Of a DNA stretch of 7,123 nt, positions 1 to 7,123 are shown piece after piece. Source of the DNA: Candidatus Rokuibacteriota bacterium (lineage in GTDB: Bacteria; Methylomirabilota; Methylomirabilia; Rokubacteriales; JACPHL01). The stretch is taken from positions 1-7,123 of the forward strand of contig JACPHL010000193.1 of the NCBI GenBank assembly GCA_016188625.1, in the 5' to 3' direction. The position numbers and the translations under genes are program-made. A model generated the notes under the pieces. The model worked only from the letters and a program-made list of their open reading frames with translations. It was not told the origin of the DNA and did not search any database. Position 1 is the stretch's first letter. Each line of letters begins with the position of its first letter.

Positions 1-54
1 CTGGAGGTGGACCGGACCCACAACTTCGTCGCCGACGGCGTGGTGGTCCACAAC
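1..54 (+). other. C-terminal end of an intein (blocks F and G)
   Basis: The first 18 codons encode LEVDRTHNFVADGVVVHN, which matches the intein C-terminal signature: block F (D/E-V-x-x-x-H-N-F-x-A-x-G) followed by block G (V-V-H-N). The penultimate His is at 49-51 and the terminal Asn at 52-54. The next residue, Ser at 55-57, is the +1 nucleophile and also the Ser of helicase motif III (DDQ-SIY). By known intein chemistry, Asn cyclisation would release the intein and join the upstream helicase half to this Ser. The N-terminal intein blocks and any homing endonuclease lie outside the window. From this end alone it cannot be told whether the intein is full-length, mini or split. Confidence 0.93.
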
Positions 55-2139
55 TCGATCTACAAGTTCAGGGGCGCGGCGAGCTCGAACGTCCTGGGGT
101 TCCTCGACAACTACCCCCAGGCCCGGCAGCTCGTCCTCACCGAGAACCACCGCTCCCCCCAGGCCGTGCTCGACTCGGCCTACCGGCTCATCACCCACAA
201 CAACCCCGACCGCCTCGAGGTCCGCTACGGGATCACCAAACGCCTCCAGGCCCGGAGCGGTCCGGGCCCCGAGCCGTTCCACCTCCACTTCGAGACGGGG
301 ACCCAGGAGGCGGACGAGGTCGCCCGGCTGACCGAGGAGAAGGTCGCGGCCGGGGCGTGGCGCCCGAGCGATGTCGCCATCCTCGTCCGCTCCAACAACG
401 ACGCCGACGCGTTCCTGCGCGCCCTCAACCTGCGGGGCATCCCCTGGACCTTCAGCGGCAACCAGGGGCTCTACGGCCGCCCCGAGATCCGCCTCCTGAT
501 CGCCTTCCTCCGCGCGGTCGCGCACCCCGACGACTCGGTGAGCGTCCACTACCTCGCCTCCTCCGACCTCTACCGGGTGCCGGCCGTGGACCTCACCCGC
601 TGCGCCACCTACGCGGACCGGCGGCACCGCTGGCTCTTCGACGTCCTCCGCCAGGCGGGCGAGATCCCGGAGCTGGGGCCCGAGCTCTCCCCGGAGGGGC
701 AGGGGGCGATCCGCCGGCTGGTGGAGGACCTGACCCGCTTCATGGAGTTGGCGCGCGAGCTGCCCACGGGCGAGCTCCTCTACCAGTTCCTCGCCGACTC
801 CGGCTGGCTGGCGCGGATGTCCAAGGCGGAAACCGCCCGCGACGAGGCCGAGGTCCAGAACGTCTCGCGCTTCTTCCGCCGGATCCAGGACGCCTCCAGG
901 GTCCTCCGCGACGACCGCGTGCGGGGGTTCGTGAACTACCTCGACGCGCTCATGGAGGCGGGCGAGGACCCGGCCGTCGCCGAGGCGGACGTCGAGACCC
1001 CGGCCGTCCGCGTCCTCACCGTCCACAAGGCCAAGGGGCTCGAGTTCCCGGTGGTCTTCCTGGTCGGGCTGGTCCAGGGGCGCTTCCCCTGGCCGAACCG
1101 GGGCGAGGCGATCGAGCTGCCCGATGCCCTGATCAAGGACACGTTGCCGTCCGGCGACTTCCAGCTCCAGGAGGAGCGGCGGCTCTTCTACGTCGCGATG
1201 ACGCGCGAGCTCTACCTGACCTCCGCCCGCGACTACGGCGGGAGCCGCGAGCGCAAGGTGAGCCAGTTCGTCCTGGAGGCCCTCGACCTCCCCAAGGACG
1301 CCGCCCGGCCGTTCAAGGCCCGGGCCATCGAGGAGCTTCACCGCCATGCCCCTCCCACCGAGGCCGACGGCGCGGGGCTCCAGCCGATCCCGCCGGAGGT
1401 GGAGCTGACGGTCAGCCACCGGCAGGTGGACGACTACGAGACCTGCCCGCTCAAGTACCGGTACATCCACGTCTCGCGCATCCCGATCCGGCGCCACCAC
1501 GCGGTCGCCTACGGGCACACCATCCACCGGGTCGTGGAGTACTACCTCCTGCGCCGGGCGGCCGGGAACTACACCTCCCTGGAGGACCTCCTGGCGGTCT
1601 ACGAGCGGGAGTGGGCCAACGAGGGGTTCCTGACCTGGGAGCACGAGGAGGCGCGCAAGGCCGCCGGACGGGCCGCCCTCACCCGCTTCTGGCACGAGGA
1701 GGAGACAGCCGGCGTCAAGCCGACCCACGTGGAGAAGGAGTTCGGCTTTACCCTCGGCCCGGACCGGGTGCGGGGGCGGTTCGACCGGGTGGACGAGGAG
1801 CCCGAGGGCGCGGTGATCATCGACTATAAGACTTCGGAGGTGACGCGGCAGAAGGACGCCGACCGCCGCGCGGCCGAGAGCCTCCAGCTCAAGATCTACG
1901 CCCTGGCCTGGCGGGAGATGACCGGCCGGCCCCCGCAGCGGGTGGAGCTCCGATTCCTGGACGCCGCGGTGGTCGGCCGCCACGTCCCGACCGACGGGGA
2001 CCTGGAGGAGGCCGTGGAGGGGATCCGGGCCGCGGCCGCGGGGATCCGCGCCCGCCGCTTCGAGCCCACCCCCTCGTACATGGCGTGCCGCTTCTGCGCC
2101 TACAACCAGATCTGCCCCTACACCGCCACCCGCGAGTAG
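1..2139 (+). CDS. UvrD/PcrA-like SF1 helicase with C-terminal RecB-family Fe-S nuclease domain, intein-containing, 5'-partial
   Basis: This is the 3' part of a DNA helicase-nuclease. It is expected to unwind and trim DNA ends in recombination or repair, using ATP, in the cytoplasm. After 18 intein residues the helicase resumes inside motif III (SIYKFRGA, 55-78). Motif IV follows (LTENHRS, 136-156), then a IVa-like segment (GLYGRPEIR, about 466-492), motif V (VLTVHKAKGLEF, 1012-1047) and motif VI (EERRLFYVAMTR, 1171-1206). A PD-(D/E)XK nuclease domain occupies about 1405-2130. Motifs I, Ia and II lie upstream of the window. The GTG at position 7 is inside intein coding sequence and is not a start, so the frame is open through base 1. 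Motif VI runs directly from TR into ELYLTSA, about three residues shorter than usual. The single-chain helicase plus nuclease layout resembles AddA/AdnA/AdnB-type end-processing enzymes. The exact subfamily is not certain. The gene ends at TAG 2137-2139. Confidence 0.93.
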   Translation: MEVDRTHNFVADGVVVHNSIYKFRGAASSNVLGFLDNYPQARQLVLTENHRSPQAVLDSAYRLITHNNPDRLEVRYGITKRLQARSGPGPEPFHLHFETGTQEADEVARLTEEKVAAGAWRPSDVAILVRSNNDADAFLRALNLRGIPWTFSGNQGLYGRPEIRLLIAFLRAVAHPDDSVSVHYLASSDLYRVPAVDLTRCATYADRRHRWLFDVLRQAGEIPELGPELSPEGQGAIRRLVEDLTRFMELARELPTGELLYQFLADSGWLARMSKAETARDEAEVQNVSRFFRRIQDASRVLRDDRVRGFVNYLDALMEAGEDPAVAEADVETPAVRVLTVHKAKGLEFPVVFLVGLVQGRFPWPNRGEAIELPDALIKDTLPSGDFQLQEERRLFYVAMTRELYLTSARDYGGSRERKVSQFVLEALDLPKDAARPFKARAIEELHRHAPPTEADGAGLQPIPPEVELTVSHRQVDDYETCPLKYRYIHVSRIPIRRHHAVAYGHTIHRVVEYYLLRRAAGNYTSLEDLLAVYEREWANEGFLTWEHEEARKAAGRAALTRFWHEEETAGVKPTHVEKEFGFTLGPDRVRGRFDRVDEEPEGAVIIDYKTSEVTRQKDADRRAAESLQLKIYALAWREMTGRPPQRVELRFLDAAVVGRHVPTDGDLEEAVEGIRAAAAGIRARRFEPTPSYMACRFCAYNQICPYTATRE
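1405..2130 (+). other. PD-(D/E)XK (RecB/Cas4-like) nuclease domain with probable 4Fe-4S cluster
   Basis: This is the C-terminal nuclease domain of the helicase gene. It starts at TVSHRQVDDYETC, the usual entry of the RecB/AddB/Cas4 domain, with the first Cys at 1444-1446. Catalytic candidates are His 1525-1527 (YGHTIH), Asp 1783-1785 (GRFDR), Asp 1822-1824 and Lys 1828-1830 (IIDYK), then Gln 1885-1887 and Tyr 1897-1899 (QLKIY). The two Asp residues are 13 positions apart, as in the RecB nuclease (D1067 and D1080 by my recollection). Three more Cys at 2086, 2095 and 2113 form C-x2-C-x5-C. With the distant first Cys this is the arrangement of the iron-sulfur staple of AddB and Cas4 nucleases. 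All catalytic positions appear intact, so an active Mg-dependent DNase is likely. Confidence 0.9.
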
Positions 2140-2242: not shown

Positions 2243-2251
2243 GTAGTGGAG

Positions 2252-2665
2252 ATGGCTGAGATCGCACAACGGCTCCCGTACTTCTACATCGAGGCGCCCG
2301 ACAAGCCCGGTGAGGGCGCCCGCGTCCTCGCGGTCCTGAAGCAGGCCGGGGTGAACCTCGTCGCCTTCTCGGGCTTCCCCAAGGGGCGGAAGTCCCAGCT
2401 CGACTTCGTCCCGTCCGACCCGGCCGCCTTCCGGCAGGCCGCGAAGCAGGCGAAGTGGAAGGTGGTCGGGCCGAAGACCTGCTTCGTGATCCAGGGCGAG
2501 GACCGGGTCGGCGCGCTAGCCGACATCCTGGCGAAGCTCGCCGGGGCCAAGATCAACGTGACCGCCACCGACGCCATCTGCACGGGCGACGGCCGGTTCG
2601 GCGTCCTCCTCTGGGTGAAGCCGCGGGACGTCAACCGCGCCGCGAAGGCGTTGGGGGCCTCGTAG
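2252..2665 (+). CDS. Stand-alone tandem ACT-domain protein, probable small-ligand sensor
   Basis: This is a 137-residue soluble protein made of two ACT-like halves and nothing else. The first, residues about 9-55, has the ACT turn DKPGEGARVLAVLKQAG followed by VNLVAFSGFP. The second, about 75-135, reads FVIQGEDRVGALADILAKLA, then AKINVTATDAI and a closing strand GRFGVLLWVK. The pattern of strand, D-x-P/V-G loop, helix and I/V-N-V is that of ACT domains, which bind amino acids or similar small ligands at subunit interfaces. No catalytic or DNA-binding domain is attached, so it is either a free-standing regulator or a partner of an enzyme encoded elsewhere. The start was chosen from the Shine-Dalgarno spacing; GTG 2246 would add two residues. 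The ligand cannot be read from the sequence. It stands slightly apart from both neighbours and may be its own transcription unit. Confidence 0.85.
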   Translation: MAEIAQRLPYFYIEAPDKPGEGARVLAVLKQAGVNLVAFSGFPKGRKSQLDFVPSDPAAFRQAAKQAKWKVVGPKTCFVIQGEDRVGALADILAKLAGAKINVTATDAICTGDGRFGVLLWVKPRDVNRAAKALGAS

Positions 2666-2679
2666 TCGGGTGACGCGGC

Positions 2680-2704
2680 GGGCCCGTCGCCCACCGGCGG
2701 GCCC
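2680..2704 (+). terminator. Strong GC hairpin after the ACT gene, possible terminator or attenuator
   Basis: GGGCCCGTCG (2680-2689) pairs with CGGCGGGCCC (2695-2704) through 10 base pairs including one T-G wobble, around the 5-base loop CCCAC. It starts 14 bases after the ACT stop codon. No T-tract follows, so it is not a canonical intrinsic terminator. It could still stop or pause polymerase, protect an mRNA 3' end, or attenuate read-through into the adenosyltransferase gene. Confidence 0.4.
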
Positions 2705-2740
2705 CCCGCAACCCCTCAGGACGATCCCGGGGGCGCGGGC

Positions 2741-2755
2741 CCTCCGCCCTGGAGG
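2741..2755 (+). promoter_or_regulatory. CCTCC/GGAGG leader hairpin upstream of the adenosyltransferase gene
   Basis: CCTCC (2741-2745) and GGAGG (2751-2755) form a perfect 5-bp stem with a 5-base loop, extendable by two G-C pairs beyond one mismatch. The left arm could instead pair with the GGAG of the real ribosome binding site at 2779-2782, so two competing structures are possible. This is inference from base pairing alone. No cobalamin riboswitch core was recognised in this leader. Confidence 0.2.
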
Positions 2756-2776
2756 TCCGTCGCCCGCCCGGCCCCC

Positions 2777-2782
2777 AAGGAG
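2777..2782 (+). promoter_or_regulatory. Ribosome binding site AAGGAG of the adenosyltransferase gene
   Basis: AAGGAG lies 7 bases before ATG 2790. The open frame extends 40 codons further upstream, but that stretch is Arg/Pro-rich, has no homology-like features and runs through the hairpin, so the ribosome binding site decides for the internal ATG. Confidence 0.75.
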
Positions 2783-2789
2783 TCAGGCC

Positions 2790-3404
2790 ATGCCGATCCG
2801 GATCACCCGCGTCTACACCCGCACCGGGGACAAAGGGTTGACCGCCCTGGTGGGCGGCAAGCGCGTGCCGAAGGACTCCCCGCGCATCGCCGCCTACGGC
2901 ACCATCGACGAGCTGAACTCCGTCGTGGGCCTGGCCCGCGTCTTCAACGAGGAGCGCCTCGCGGAGGGGGAGCGGCACCGCTGGCTGGACGACGTACTCC
3001 GCCGGATCCAGGACCAGCTCTTCGACCTGGGGAGCGAGCTGGCCACGCCCCCGGAGGCCGTCTACGAGGGGATGTACCGGGTGGGGGCGGCCGAGGTCAA
3101 GGGGCTCGAGCAGCTCATCGACCACTGCCAGAAGGACCTCGAGCCACTCAAGTCCTTCGTCCTGCCCGGCGGCGGGCGGATCGGGGCCTTCCTCCACCAG
3201 TGCCGCACCGTCTGCCGGCGCGCCGAGCGCGAGATCCTGGCCCTCTCGCGCGTGGAGCCGATCGGGGAGTGGCCGCTCAAGTACGTGAACCGGCTGAGCG
3301 ACCTCTTCTTCGTCCTGGCCCGGTGGGTGGGCAAGCACCTGGGCGAGAAAGAGTACCTCTGGGAGCGGGGGCTCCAGGCCCACGCCCGTGGCAAGAAGGG
3401 GTGA
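2790..3404 (+). CDS. ATP:cob(I)alamin adenosyltransferase, PduO type
   Basis: This enzyme transfers the 5'-deoxyadenosyl group of ATP to cob(I)alamin, making coenzyme B12 for adenosylcobalamin-dependent mutases, diol dehydratases or ribonucleotide reductase, in the cytoplasm. The 204 residues match the usual size of the single-domain family. The N-terminal ATP-binding motif TRTGDKGLT is at residues 10-18, followed by the YGTIDELNS segment (36-44). The C-terminal half has LPGGG (125-129), the arginine-rich ATP/cobalamin helix RTVCRRAER (139-147) and YVNRLSDLFFVLAR (from 165). All key motifs appear intact, including Arg143-Arg144 and Asp171. The start ATG follows an AAGGAG site; a longer open frame upstream is judged noncoding. 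The family is known as PduO, CobA2 or MMAB. The gene is followed within 30 bases by the aminopeptidase, suggesting cotranscription. No B12-dependent enzyme is visible in the window to show which pathway it serves. Confidence 0.95.
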   Translation: MPIRITRVYTRTGDKGLTALVGGKRVPKDSPRIAAYGTIDELNSVVGLARVFNEERLAEGERHRWLDDVLRRIQDQLFDLGSELATPPEAVYEGMYRVGAAEVKGLEQLIDHCQKDLEPLKSFVLPGGGRIGAFLHQCRTVCRRAEREILALSRVEPIGEWPLKYVNRLSDLFFVLARWVGKHLGEKEYLWERGLQAHARGKKG

Positions 3405-3432
3405 GCGGATGGCAGAAAGGGGGGAGCACGCG

Positions 3433-6018
3433 ATGACCGAGCCCGAGGACCCCTACCGGCTGCCGCGGACCGTCGCCCCCAGCCGGTATCGGATCCGGCT
3501 CGAGCCCGACCTCGGGACCTTCACCTTCACCGGCGAGGAGACGGTGGAGGTGACCGTCGAAGAGCCGGTCCGCGAGGTCCTGCTGAACGCCGCTGACCTC
3601 GAGATCCAGGAGGTGAGTGCCCGGGACGGGCGGGGGAGGAGCCTCCGCGGCGAGGCGAGGCTTGAGCCCGCGACGGAGCGCGCGCGCCTTCTCTTCCCCG
3701 AGCCGCTCGCCCCCGGCCCCTGTCAGCTCACGCTCCGCTTCAGCGGGGCGCTCAACACCCGGCTCCACGGCCTCTACCGGAGCGCCTACCGGGACGCCGC
3801 CGGCGCCGAGCGGTTCCTGGCCGTCACCCAGTTCGAGGCCACCGACGCCCGCCGCGCCTTCCCGTGCTGGGACGAGCCGGCGTTCAAGGCGTCCTTCGAG
3901 CTGACCCTGGTGGTGGACGAGGCCCTGACCGCGCTCTCCAACACCGCGGTCGTCAGCGAGCGCCCGGTCGCCGGGACCGGCAGGAAGGAGGTCACCTTCG
4001 CCCCCACGATCCGGATGTCCACCTACCTCGTCGCCCTGGTGGTCGGGGAGCTCGAGGCGACCGACCCGGTGCCGGTCGAGGGGACCCCGGTCCGGATCTG
4101 GTGCGTCCCGGGGAAGCGGCACCTGGCCGGCTTCGCCCGGGAGGCCGCGGCCTTCTCGCTCCGCTTCTTCCGGGAGTACTACGGGCTCCCCTATCCGGGC
4201 GACAAGCTCGACCTGGTCGCCATCCCCGACTTCGCGGCCGGCGCCATGGAGAACCTGGGGCTCATCACCTTCCGCGAGACCGCGCTCCTGGTGGACGCCG
4301 CCGCCGCGAGCCACGCCGAGCTCGAGCGGATCGCCGACGTGGTGGCCCACGAGATCGCCCACATGTGGTTCGGCGACCTGGTCACCATGGCGTGGTGGAA
4401 CGGGATCTGGCTCAACGAGGCCTTCGCCACCTTCATGGAGATGCTGGCCGTGGATACCTGGAAGCCGGCCTGGCAGCGCTGGGCCACCTTCAGCGTGTCG
4501 CGAGCCCACGCCATGACCGTGGACGGGCTCCGGTCGAGCCGGCCGATCGAGTTCCCGGTGGCCGCCCCCCGGGACGCCGACGCCATGTTCGACGTCCTCA
4601 CCTACGAGAAGGGGGCCGCCGTCCTCCGGATGCTCGAGCAGTACCTGGGGCCCGAGGTCTTCCGCGACGGGATCCGGCGCTACCTCGTCGAGCACCGGTA
4701 CGCCAACGCCGAGACGACCGACCTCTGGAAGGCGCTCGGCGAGGCGACGCCCGACCCGGTCCCCGCCATCATGGACGGGTGGATCTTCCGGCCCGGCTAT
4801 CCCATGGTGACCGCGAGCCTCGACGCGGCCGGCGCCGGCCTCCTCCTCGCCCAGCGCCGCTTCACCTACCTCGAGGATGGAACAGGCGAGCGGGAGCTGT
4901 GGCAGGTCCCCGTCACCCTCAGGGTCTCGGCGGGCGGCCAGGCGCGGCGGGTGCGGCTCCTCCTCGGCTCGGCCGAGGAGCGGGTCGCCCTCGAGGCGGC
5001 GCCCGACTGGGTGGTGGTCAACGAGGGCGGGCCCGGCTTCTACCGGGTCCGCTATGCCCCGGAGCTGCTGGCCCGGCTCACCGGCCGGCTCTACGAGGCG
5101 CTCGCCCCCGTCGAGCGCTTCAACCTGGTCAACGATGCCTGGGCGGCGCCGGTGGCCGGGCTCATCCCCGTCACGGAGTACCTGGAGCTGACCGCGCACT
5201 TCCGCGAGGAGACCGACCGGAACGTCTGGGCGGCGCTGGCGGGGTCGTACGCCTCCCTCCACCGGGTCATCGCCCCCGCCGAGCGGCCAGGCCTGGAGGC
5301 GCTGGTCCGGGACCGGGTCGGCCCCGCGGCGGCCCGGCTCGGCTGGGAGCCCCGGGCGGGGGAGGACGAGCTGACGCGGCAGCTCCGGGGCGACCTCCTG
5401 CGCGCGCTCGGGACCCTCGGGGACGATCAGGCGATCCAGGCCGAGGCGCGCGAGCGCTGGGCCCGGTACCGCGCCGACCGCTCGGCGGTGGACCCCAACG
5501 TCGCCCCCGCCCTGGTCGCCGTCCTCGCCCACGCCGGCGGCGAGGCGGAGTACGCCGAGTTCCTCGGGCGGTTCAAGGCCGCGCCGACCCCCCAGGAGGA
5601 GCAGCGCTACCTCTACGCCCTGGCCGGGTTCCGCCAGCCGGCGCTCCTCCAGCGGACGCTGGAGCGGACGGTCAGCGAGGAGGTCCGCGTCCAGGACGCC
5701 CCGTTCCTGATCCGGGCCCTGCTCACGAGCGTCTACGCCCGGGAGCTGGCGTGGGGGTTCGTCAAGGAGCGCTGGGAGACGCTGGCGCAGCGCTTCCCCC
5801 CGAAGAGCGGCCTCCGACGGATGTGCGAGGGGATCACGGGCCTCGCGACCGCGGAGCTCGAGGCCGACGTCCGGGCGTTCTTCGGCTCGCGCGGGATCAC
5901 CCTGGGGGGGAAGACGCTCGAGCAGTACCTCGAGCAGCTCCGCGTCGCGGTCGCCTTCGGCGAGCGCGAGGCCGCCGCACTCCGGGCCTACCTGGCCCGG
6001 GGAGCCGCCCATGCCTGA
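3433..6018 (+). CDS. M1-family zinc aminopeptidase (aminopeptidase N / tricorn-factor type)
   Basis: This 861-residue cytoplasmic metallopeptidase removes N-terminal amino acids from peptides, probably the last step of intracellular protein turnover. Residues 1 to about 190 form the beta-rich N-terminal domain, with TQFEATDARRAFPCWDEP near 132-149. The exopeptidase motif GAMEN is at 270-274. The zinc site HEIAH is at 306-310, with the third ligand Glu at 329 (HExxH-x18-E). The catalytic Tyr is at 391 (TYEKG). A beta-sandwich (about 445-540) and a helical ERAP1-like C-terminal domain (NEGGPGFYRVRY, ERFNLVNDAW) complete the fold. No signal peptide or membrane segment is seen. All catalytic residues are present. 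The start is uncertain: ATG 3433 has GGAG 6 bases upstream and sits next to the conserved DPYRLPRTVAPSRY start of the family. ATG 3409, with AGAAGG upstream and 4 bases after the previous stop, is a real alternative adding 8 residues. Its end overlaps the glycosylase gene. Confidence 0.96.
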   Translation: MTEPEDPYRLPRTVAPSRYRIRLEPDLGTFTFTGEETVEVTVEEPVREVLLNAADLEIQEVSARDGRGRSLRGEARLEPATERARLLFPEPLAPGPCQLTLRFSGALNTRLHGLYRSAYRDAAGAERFLAVTQFEATDARRAFPCWDEPAFKASFELTLVVDEALTALSNTAVVSERPVAGTGRKEVTFAPTIRMSTYLVALVVGELEATDPVPVEGTPVRIWCVPGKRHLAGFAREAAAFSLRFFREYYGLPYPGDKLDLVAIPDFAAGAMENLGLITFRETALLVDAAAASHAELERIADVVAHEIAHMWFGDLVTMAWWNGIWLNEAFATFMEMLAVDTWKPAWQRWATFSVSRAHAMTVDGLRSSRPIEFPVAAPRDADAMFDVLTYEKGAAVLRMLEQYLGPEVFRDGIRRYLVEHRYANAETTDLWKALGEATPDPVPAIMDGWIFRPGYPMVTASLDAAGAGLLLAQRRFTYLEDGTGERELWQVPVTLRVSAGGQARRVRLLLGSAEERVALEAAPDWVVVNEGGPGFYRVRYAPELLARLTGRLYEALAPVERFNLVNDAWAAPVAGLIPVTEYLELTAHFREETDRNVWAALAGSYASLHRVIAPAERPGLEALVRDRVGPAAARLGWEPRAGEDELTRQLRGDLLRALGTLGDDQAIQAEARERWARYRADRSAVDPNVAPALVAVLAHAGGEAEYAEFLGRFKAAPTPQEEQRYLYALAGFRQPALLQRTLERTVSEEVRVQDAPFLIRALLTSVYARELAWGFVKERWETLAQRFPPKSGLRRMCEGITGLATAELEADVRAFFGSRGITLGGKTLEQYLEQLRVAVAFGEREAAALRAYLARGAAHA

Positions 6019-6829
6019 GCTGCCGGAGCTCGAGGTCTACGCCGAGAACCTGAGGCCCCGGCTCGAGGGCCGGACGATCGTGGGCGTCGAGGTCGTCCAC
6101 CCGGGCGTCCTCCGCCCGGCCACCCCCGAGGCGTTCCGGGAGCGGGTGGTCGGCCGGAGCGTCACGGGGGTCGCCCGACGGGGCAAGACGCTCGGCCTGG
6201 CCCTCGACTCCGGGGAGCGGTTCGATGTCCACCTGATGATCGGGGGCGAGATGTTCTGGTCCGAGGGCGCGGCGGGCGAGACCGCGAAGCCCCCGGAGCC
6301 GGTCCTGACCCTCGATCTGTCGGGCGGCGCGCGGCTGACCTTCTCCGACCCCAACTACAACGTCCTCCGCCCGGGCAACCCCAAGATGAAGCTCGGCCTC
6401 AACCAGCGGGAGCGGCTGGGGATCGATCCGCTGGACCCGGCGTTCACCCCCGAGGCCCTCGGGGCCCTGGCCAGGCGCCACAAGGTCCTCCCGGTCAAGG
6501 CGCTCCTCATGGACCAGAAGCTGATCGCCGGGCTCGGGAACGCCTACGTGGACGAGATCCTCTGGGAATGCCGGCTCCGGCCCCGCCGCACCGCCTCGCT
6601 CCTCTCCGCCGAGGAGCTGGCGGCCCTCCACCGGGCGATCCGGGCGCTGATGGAGCGGGCGATCGCCCACACCCGCGAGCAGGCGGCCGGGGAGATCCGC
6701 GGCGAGTTCCGGGAGTACTTCGCCGTCCACCACCGCACCGGCAAGCCCTGCCCCCGCTGCGGGGGCCGGGTCGCCCATGAGTGGTTCCGGGAGCGGACCA
6801 CGAACTGGTGCCCCACCTGCCAGGCGTAG
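6011..6829 (+). CDS. Formamidopyrimidine-DNA glycosylase family protein (Fpg/MutM-like, atypical)
   Basis: This 272-residue base-excision repair enzyme is predicted to remove oxidised bases and cut the abasic site. It has the N-terminal MPELPELE with catalytic Pro2 and Glu3, and Lys59 in RRGK, the usual DNA-contacting lysine. The helix-two-turn-helix is KLIAGLGNAYVDEILW (170-185) with Asn177. A C-terminal zinc finger has Cys247, 250, 267 and 270 (C-x2-C-x16-C-x2-C) and Arg262. Length and domain order are normal for Fpg. Unusual: the canonical DPRRFG loop reads DPNYNV (113-118), so two of the three residues that fill the gap left by the flipped-out base are replaced, while Met76 (HLMIGG) remains. 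The segment before the zinc finger also departs from the usual Fpg lesion-capping loop. Substrate preference may therefore differ from 8-oxoguanine, and an Fpg/Nei side branch is possible. ATG 6011 overlaps the aminopeptidase stop by 8 bases and has GGAG at 6001-6004, suggesting translational coupling. Confidence 0.92.
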   Translation: MPELPELEVYAENLRPRLEGRTIVGVEVVHPGVLRPATPEAFRERVVGRSVTGVARRGKTLGLALDSGERFDVHLMIGGEMFWSEGAAGETAKPPEPVLTLDLSGGARLTFSDPNYNVLRPGNPKMKLGLNQRERLGIDPLDPAFTPEALGALARRHKVLPVKALLMDQKLIAGLGNAYVDEILWECRLRPRRTASLLSAEELAALHRAIRALMERAIAHTREQAAGEIRGEFREYFAVHHRTGKPCPRCGGRVAHEWFRERTTNWCPTCQA

Positions 6830-6867: not shown

Positions 6868-7123
6868 CGCCAGGCCCAATGCGTTCGCCAGAGGGCCCCC
6901 CGGGGAGGCCTCGGCCCCTCGCTCCACACGCTCCGCGGCGCACCCGTCAGTGGCTCGCCGGCCGGGGCCCCTCCTGTTTGTCTTCCGCTCGCCTGTCGGC
7001 TTCCCCACCCGGCTCGCTCACGACGGGGACCCGCGCCGCTCCGCTTAACGTTCCGCTCGGGGCCGACGCCTCCCCAAAGGGCCGGTCGCCCTTCGCTCGG
7101 GTGCCCGGAGGGCCGTCGGGAGG
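6868..7123. repeat. Repeat-rich noncoding tail with one-sided CGCTC motifs
   Basis: I find no credible gene in these 256 bases. CGCTC occurs at 6920, 6929, 6986, 7015, 7037, 7054 and 7094, and its complement GAGCG does not occur on the + strand here. Longer related units are TTCCGCTCG at 6983-6991 and 7051-7059, and TTCGCTCGGG at 7092-7101. Several short GC palindromes (CCCCGGGG-like, GAGGCCTC, CCGGCCGG, GGGGCCCC) lie among them. No tRNA, rRNA, CRISPR or transposase signature was recognised. It could be a degenerate intergenic repeat, the flank of a mobile element, or a structured RNA cut by the window edge. Confidence 0.4.

Follow-up and report, generated by a model that had tools for sequence, protein, structure and literature searches.

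GIY-YIG endonucleases occur in group I introns and as free-standing genes. The superfamily was not found in inteins by a survey of 2006 (PMC1564403), and a separate GIY-YIG gene has been described between the halves of a split intein (PMC7891396). Inteins of UvrD/Rep/PcrA helicases are listed in a review, which places them at the P-loop (PMC5874633), and phi92-like coliphages such as JohannJBalmer and PaulScherrer (Justusliebigvirus; BASEL collection, PMC8594841) carry an intein in a UvrD/Rep-family helicase. The coliphage records annotate an "intein-containing UvrD / Rep family helicase precursor", and in this phage group the intein lies in helicase motif III (GDEFQ/CIYQFRG, the slash marking the insertion point here and below), so a helicase intein at this motif is not new. 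A search of the open literature, with subscription papers and InBase outside its scope, found no description of a GIY-YIG domain inside a contiguous intein. An in-frame GIY-YIG-like nuclease within an intein appears to be undescribed, and priority is not certain.

The window, i.e. the whole stretch of 7,123 nucleotides that was analysed, makes up an entire contig (C325) of a Candidatus Rokuibacteriota genome. Its frame 1 is open from base 1 to 2139 and starts with LEVDRTHNFVADGVVVHN, followed by SIYKFRGA. Bases 1-69 are identical to the end of another contig of the same genome, C84. The features are as follows, the four from 2246 to 6829 having been read from the sequence by eye:

1..54, + strand: intein tail, the last 18 residues with blocks F and G and the His-Asn splice junction at the end (TIGR01443 and alignment)
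1..69, + strand: assembly overlap with the end of C84, which encodes the helicase N-terminal half and the remaining 343 residues of the intein
L006:1986-1, minus strand: helicase N-terminal half and intein part on C84, with the intein at L006:1098-16
55..57, + strand: Ser +1, splicing nucleophile and residue 1 of the C-extein (SIYKFRGA, second half of motif III)
55..2139, + strand: C-extein, 694 residues and stop, helicase C-terminal half fused to nuclease (PF13361, PF12705)
820..1206, + strand: UvrD_C helicase domain, best-matching stretch (residues 274-402; PF13361, E=1.6e-41)
1411..2118, + strand: PD-(D/E)XK nuclease, Cas4/AddB-like (residues 471-706; PF12705 PDDEXK_1, E=4.4e-37)
2246-2665: possible ACT-domain protein
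2799-3404: cobalamin adenosyltransferase-like protein
3433-6018: M1-type aminopeptidase (HEIAH)
6011-6829: Fpg/Nei-type DNA glycosylase

Near the end of the window, a dispersed repeat about 180 bp long occupies positions 6894-7076 (extending to about 7094). From 6964 on, its sequence recurs at 39 or more other places in the genome (86-98% identity), and seven copies that were checked align over 155-185 bp at 92-96%. The repeat had no Rfam match, and its fold z-score of -1.4 is not notable.

On the matching strand of C84, the frame is open to the contig end and contains the PF00580 helicase N-terminal domain (E=1e-67). It runs from ...VVADDDQ into block A, CLPPGAQVETPEG..., and block B, GRRITVTDNHKMFC, after which come a long insert and the tail shared with the window; no stop interrupts the intein/helicase frame. 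Contiguous copies were found in nine other genomes of the window's order, each with the N-extein, a 361-residue intein and the C-extein on one contig (64-81% identity, open frames of about 1330-1590 residues), while two more copies in the order end at contig ends. The nearest named organism with a relative is Candidatus Rokubacteria CSP1-6 (80%). We consider the join of the two contigs sound because of the 69-base identity and the nine contiguous relatives. The sequence-only reading, made from the window's letters, had placed an intein between the Gln and the +1 Ser of motif III, in a UvrD-like helicase with a fused nuclease. The TIGR01443 match, the junction and the contiguous relatives bear out the intein, and PF00580, PF13361 and PF12705 the Cas4/AddB-like helicase-nuclease. 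It had also proposed to look upstream for the missing halves and named an in-frame stop or missing N-terminal blocks as evidence against itself; C84 supplied the helicase N-terminal half, Cys1 and blocks A and B, and neither contrary sign was found there.

Residues 1-19 of the window's frame match TIGR01443, the NCBIfam model of the intein C-terminal splicing region, at E=5.7e-6 and 26.4 bits, above the cut-off of 15.6, and the likeness to an intein C-terminus is therefore more than chance. On C84, the N-terminal model TIGR01445 scores 28.7 bits (cut-off 24.5) and PF14890 (Intein_splicing) matches at E=2.3e-14. The complete intein has 361 residues, with Cys1, a block B TDNH, a terminal His-Asn and Ser+1; Cys1, T66 and H69 are invariant in an alignment of 17 copies, and the junction is HN/S, or HN/C in Omnitrophota. 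Its AlphaFold (AF2) model (pLDDT 84) adopts a Hint fold; its best match is a hedgehog autoprocessing domain (Z 18.5), and the Mtu RecA intein superposes at Z 17.3 (1.6 A, 132 residues). Positions 1-54 of the window are thus confirmed to encode the C-terminus of a full-length class 1 intein, which splits motif III between Gln and Ser (DDDQ/SIYKFRGA) of a single-copy SF1 helicase-nuclease. As judged from its domain matches, the host is a UvrD-type SF1 helicase (PF00580, PF13361) fused to a Cas4-like PD-(D/E)XK nuclease; the nuclease domain is also matched by PF01930 (Cas_Cas4) and has a C-terminal Cys cluster, CRFCAYNQIC. In the 33 empty alleles of the window's order the motif is continuous (DDxQ/[AS]IY). 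From the conserved residues, the Hint domain would excise itself after translation and ligate DDDQ to SIYKFRGA, restoring motif III, and it is reasonable to infer that the helicase is inactive while unspliced.

Intein-like sequences were also seen elsewhere in this genome. An IspG gene (L169, on C241) has an intein-like insert after AVMGC in which the C-terminal block is missing, and a 173-nt upstream flank (1722-1894) is repeated at 98% identity beyond the insert (2815-2987), running into uninterrupted AVMGC/EVNGPGEA. Faulty repair of an insertion could explain this arrangement, as could an assembly artefact; complete IspG inteins occur at L029, L030 and L034. A second intein type lies in a DnaE-like polymerase gene (L170, on C256; YGFPE/C...VVHN/SHAASF).

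The Hint domain of the motif III intein is interrupted by an insert of roughly 220 residues. The sequence-only reading had suggested checking upstream for any LAGLIDADG or HNH domain. Profiles of both were silent on the insert in 17 members at E up to 10 and in 30 members at E up to 1, and these types were rejected; the insert is GIY-YIG-like instead. An alignment of 30 inserts revealed an invariant Tyr, Arg, Gly, Arg and Glu (VYLM, R-x-G-x-T, R, E). The Tyr, Arg-x-Gly, Arg and Glu are also invariant over 12 very divergent inteins, a set that reaches down to 24-28% identity with its copies from phages, cyanobacteria and Thermobispora. In the numbering of the window's intein, these residues are Tyr88, Arg98, Arg108 and Glu134. 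The Tyr of the second motif (YIG) is Arg in all members, nearly throughout as Arg-[Ile/Val/Leu]-Gly, with one Arg-Thr-Gly.

Modelled alone (pLDDT 87), the insert begins with a domain of beta-beta-alpha-beta-alpha order, and among the matches listed for this domain most are GIY-YIG structures, with modest Z-scores of 4.1-5.1: Slx1 (6sei; Z 5.1, 2.5 A over 75 residues), UPF0213 (1zg2; Z 4.7) and UvrC (1yd6; Z 4.1, 2.9 A over 62 residues), next to which a restriction enzyme (9u75; Z 4.1) is listed. Foldseek gave no significant match of the insert in the PDB. At the profile level, PF01541 (Pfam GIY-YIG) had no match in 30 members, the related family T5orf172 matched one of the 30 at E=0.11, and hhalign placed the motifs in register with the UvrC and UPF0213 GIY-YIG profiles at a probability of only 4-7%; a weak profile match to the UPF0213 structure 1zg2 (E=0.58) is likewise in register. 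Taken together, these results point to a divergent GIY-YIG-like domain, which on the model and the conserved residues probably works as a GIY-YIG nuclease. We say "GIY-YIG-like" and do not claim strict superfamily membership because of the Z-scores, the empty Foldseek and PF01541 searches and the Arg at the YIG Tyr. The insert also has a second, variable domain, which the versions from cyanobacteria, Thermobispora and streptococcal phages lack. This domain probably helps recognise the target, and its absence from some versions is as one would expect of a target-recognition module.

Nei-Gojobori estimates within clade 1 put dN/dS in the GIY region at about 0.05-0.18, and in nearly every pair the Hint/splicing parts have the higher value. 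By these estimates, the nuclease is the most constrained part of the intein, and the low values therefore argue that selection maintains it. One copy, in an actinobacterial MAG (L067), has lost 306 nt (102 codons) in frame, so that most of the nuclease is gone and the splicing blocks are kept, as usually happens once a homing nuclease has ceased to be needed.

A genome scan recovered 29 relatives, hosted by Rokubacteria, Omnitrophota, CPR bacteria (Uhrbacteria, Falkowbacteria), Aquicultor, another actinobacterial MAG and Calidithermus chliarophilus. All intact copies occupy the same site (GDxxQ or ADDDQ, then [SC][IV]Y) in one of two host genes, the PDDEXK-fused helicase or PcrA. A tree of the exteins, i.e. 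the host proteins, separates PcrA from the PDDEXK helicase (100/100). In contrast, the intein tree places three PcrA inteins of Aquicultor and Actinobacteria inside the clade of PDDEXK-helicase inteins (100/100), the deep order within the clade not being settled. From this conflict, it follows that the intein moved between paralogues and phyla; on the scan and the trees, its distribution is patchy and its transfer horizontal.

Viral contigs gave no match when scanned with an alignment of the close family and did give matches with a wider one; motif III is occupied by an intein in several IMG/VR contigs. In cyanobacterial and Thermobispora plasmid copies the insertion point is two residues earlier (GD[PS]/CQAI), and in streptococcal phages the interrupted protein is an adenine methyltransferase (HEP/CLYGW). 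Related inteins in phage genes (L110, L156, L158, L161, L162) interrupt HEP/CLYGW or HEW-like/CFYGW motifs, and since the host gene of L110 encodes an adenine-specific DNA methyltransferase, the intein family is not confined to helicases. The site had been thought a less common one for inteins; the same family in fact occupies motif III of PcrA/UvrD-like helicases in several phyla and phages.

The junction was read in 45 genomes of the window's order, which gave 12 intein alleles and 33 empty ones. The +1 residue is Ser in all 11 complete intein alleles; the contig of the twelfth stops short of the junction. Among the empty alleles it is Ala in 29 and Ser in four (G035, G040, G001 and G002), and the gene tree implies about six changes of state. 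Ala offers no splicing nucleophile, and the Ala alleles therefore could not host the intein. Ala may have evolved as a defence or may just be the older of the two states. Ser with the intein and Ala in most empty alleles constitute a natural experiment on host resistance.

Recent homing should leave a co-conversion tract. In two of the empty Ser alleles, G040 and G001 (loci L070 and L072), the 20 residues past the site are 82% like the intein-bearing alleles as against 57% for the sister species, and the rest of the protein shows the opposite pattern (a local mosaic). Fisher tests of synonymous sites in this putative tract against whole-gene controls were not significant (p=0.05-0.32). With similar dips elsewhere in the gene, a co-conversion scar is not claimed for G040/G001, nor for G007, where such a tract had also seemed to adjoin the site.

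Other explanations were weighed against homing. The window begins at a contig end, where the assembly broke, and the intein tail of another gene might have been joined there to the helicase C-terminal half. The overlap is nevertheless with a contig that carries the complementary halves, and the same intein and junction lie inside the single contigs of the nine relatives; an assembly chimera was rejected and is refuted for practical purposes. It is also unlikely that the insert is some other alpha/beta domain whose likeness to GIY-YIG is due to chance, the intein spreading passively or via another endonuclease. The lack of a sequence-profile match above cut-off, the modest structural Z-scores and the Arg in place of the second-motif Tyr would all fit such a domain, yet the insert has invariant catalytic-type residues at the positions that GIY-YIG enzymes require, the order of its fold elements agrees with theirs, its structural matches are largely to them, and even the weak 1zg2 match is in register.

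Conditional splicing is known for some inteins, and the sequence-only reading had suggested a post-translational switch, i.e. a domesticated intein that turns on the helicase-nuclease by splicing under stress. An intein in a catalytic motif would keep the precursor from being active, and purifying selection on both the nuclease and the Hint parts is strong. Against this, the patchy presence, with many intein-free close relatives whose gene is otherwise similar, the transfer across phyla and paralogues and the conserved nuclease residues all fit a selfish element, and no feature that would sense a condition was observed. A switch is possible but unsupported, as nothing in the data bears on conditional splicing, and we regard it as quite improbable.

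The data fit a mobile element, most likely a homing intein. We put the probability at about 0.8 that this is a 361-residue class 1 intein with a GIY-YIG-like nuclease in its Hint insert, homing into intein-free motif III alleles. The nuclease would cut intein-free helicase alleles at the motif III codons, and repair by recombination would copy the intein into the cut allele. There is a little better than an even chance that in-frame GIY-YIG-like nucleases in contiguous inteins form a widespread undescribed class, specialised on SF1 motif III and carried between phyla and phages, to which most empty alleles are resistant by having Ala rather than Ser or Cys at +1. Relatives in the cultured Calidithermus chliarophilus DSM 9957 and in coliphages make splicing and homing testable.

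The coliphage helicase intein shares with the window's the point of insertion in motif III, the two-part layout and the nuclease residues. It differs in sequence (about 20-26% identical), in its +1 Cys and in its host, a phage helicase without the PD-(D/E)XK nuclease, and the records are silent on the endonuclease type. LAGLIDADG inteins such as PI-SceI, Mtu RecA and most full-length inteins likewise combine a Hint domain with a nuclease between blocks B and F, but the nuclease fold is a different one, and the window's intein lacks a LAGLIDADG/HNH profile match. I-TevI of group I introns and the free-standing Seg enzymes have the same catalytic-type order of Tyr, (Tyr position), Arg and Glu and the same beta-beta-alpha-beta-alpha core, which for the insert is predicted, whereas the insert lies inside an intein, has Arg for the second Tyr and is not found by the Pfam GIY-YIG model. 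The split-intein system also associates an intein with a GIY-YIG-type endonuclease, there encoded by its own gene, while in the window's intein both would be part of one contiguous, class 1-like (Cys1) protein. A contiguous intein of GIY-YIG type would widen the set of nucleases captured by inteins.
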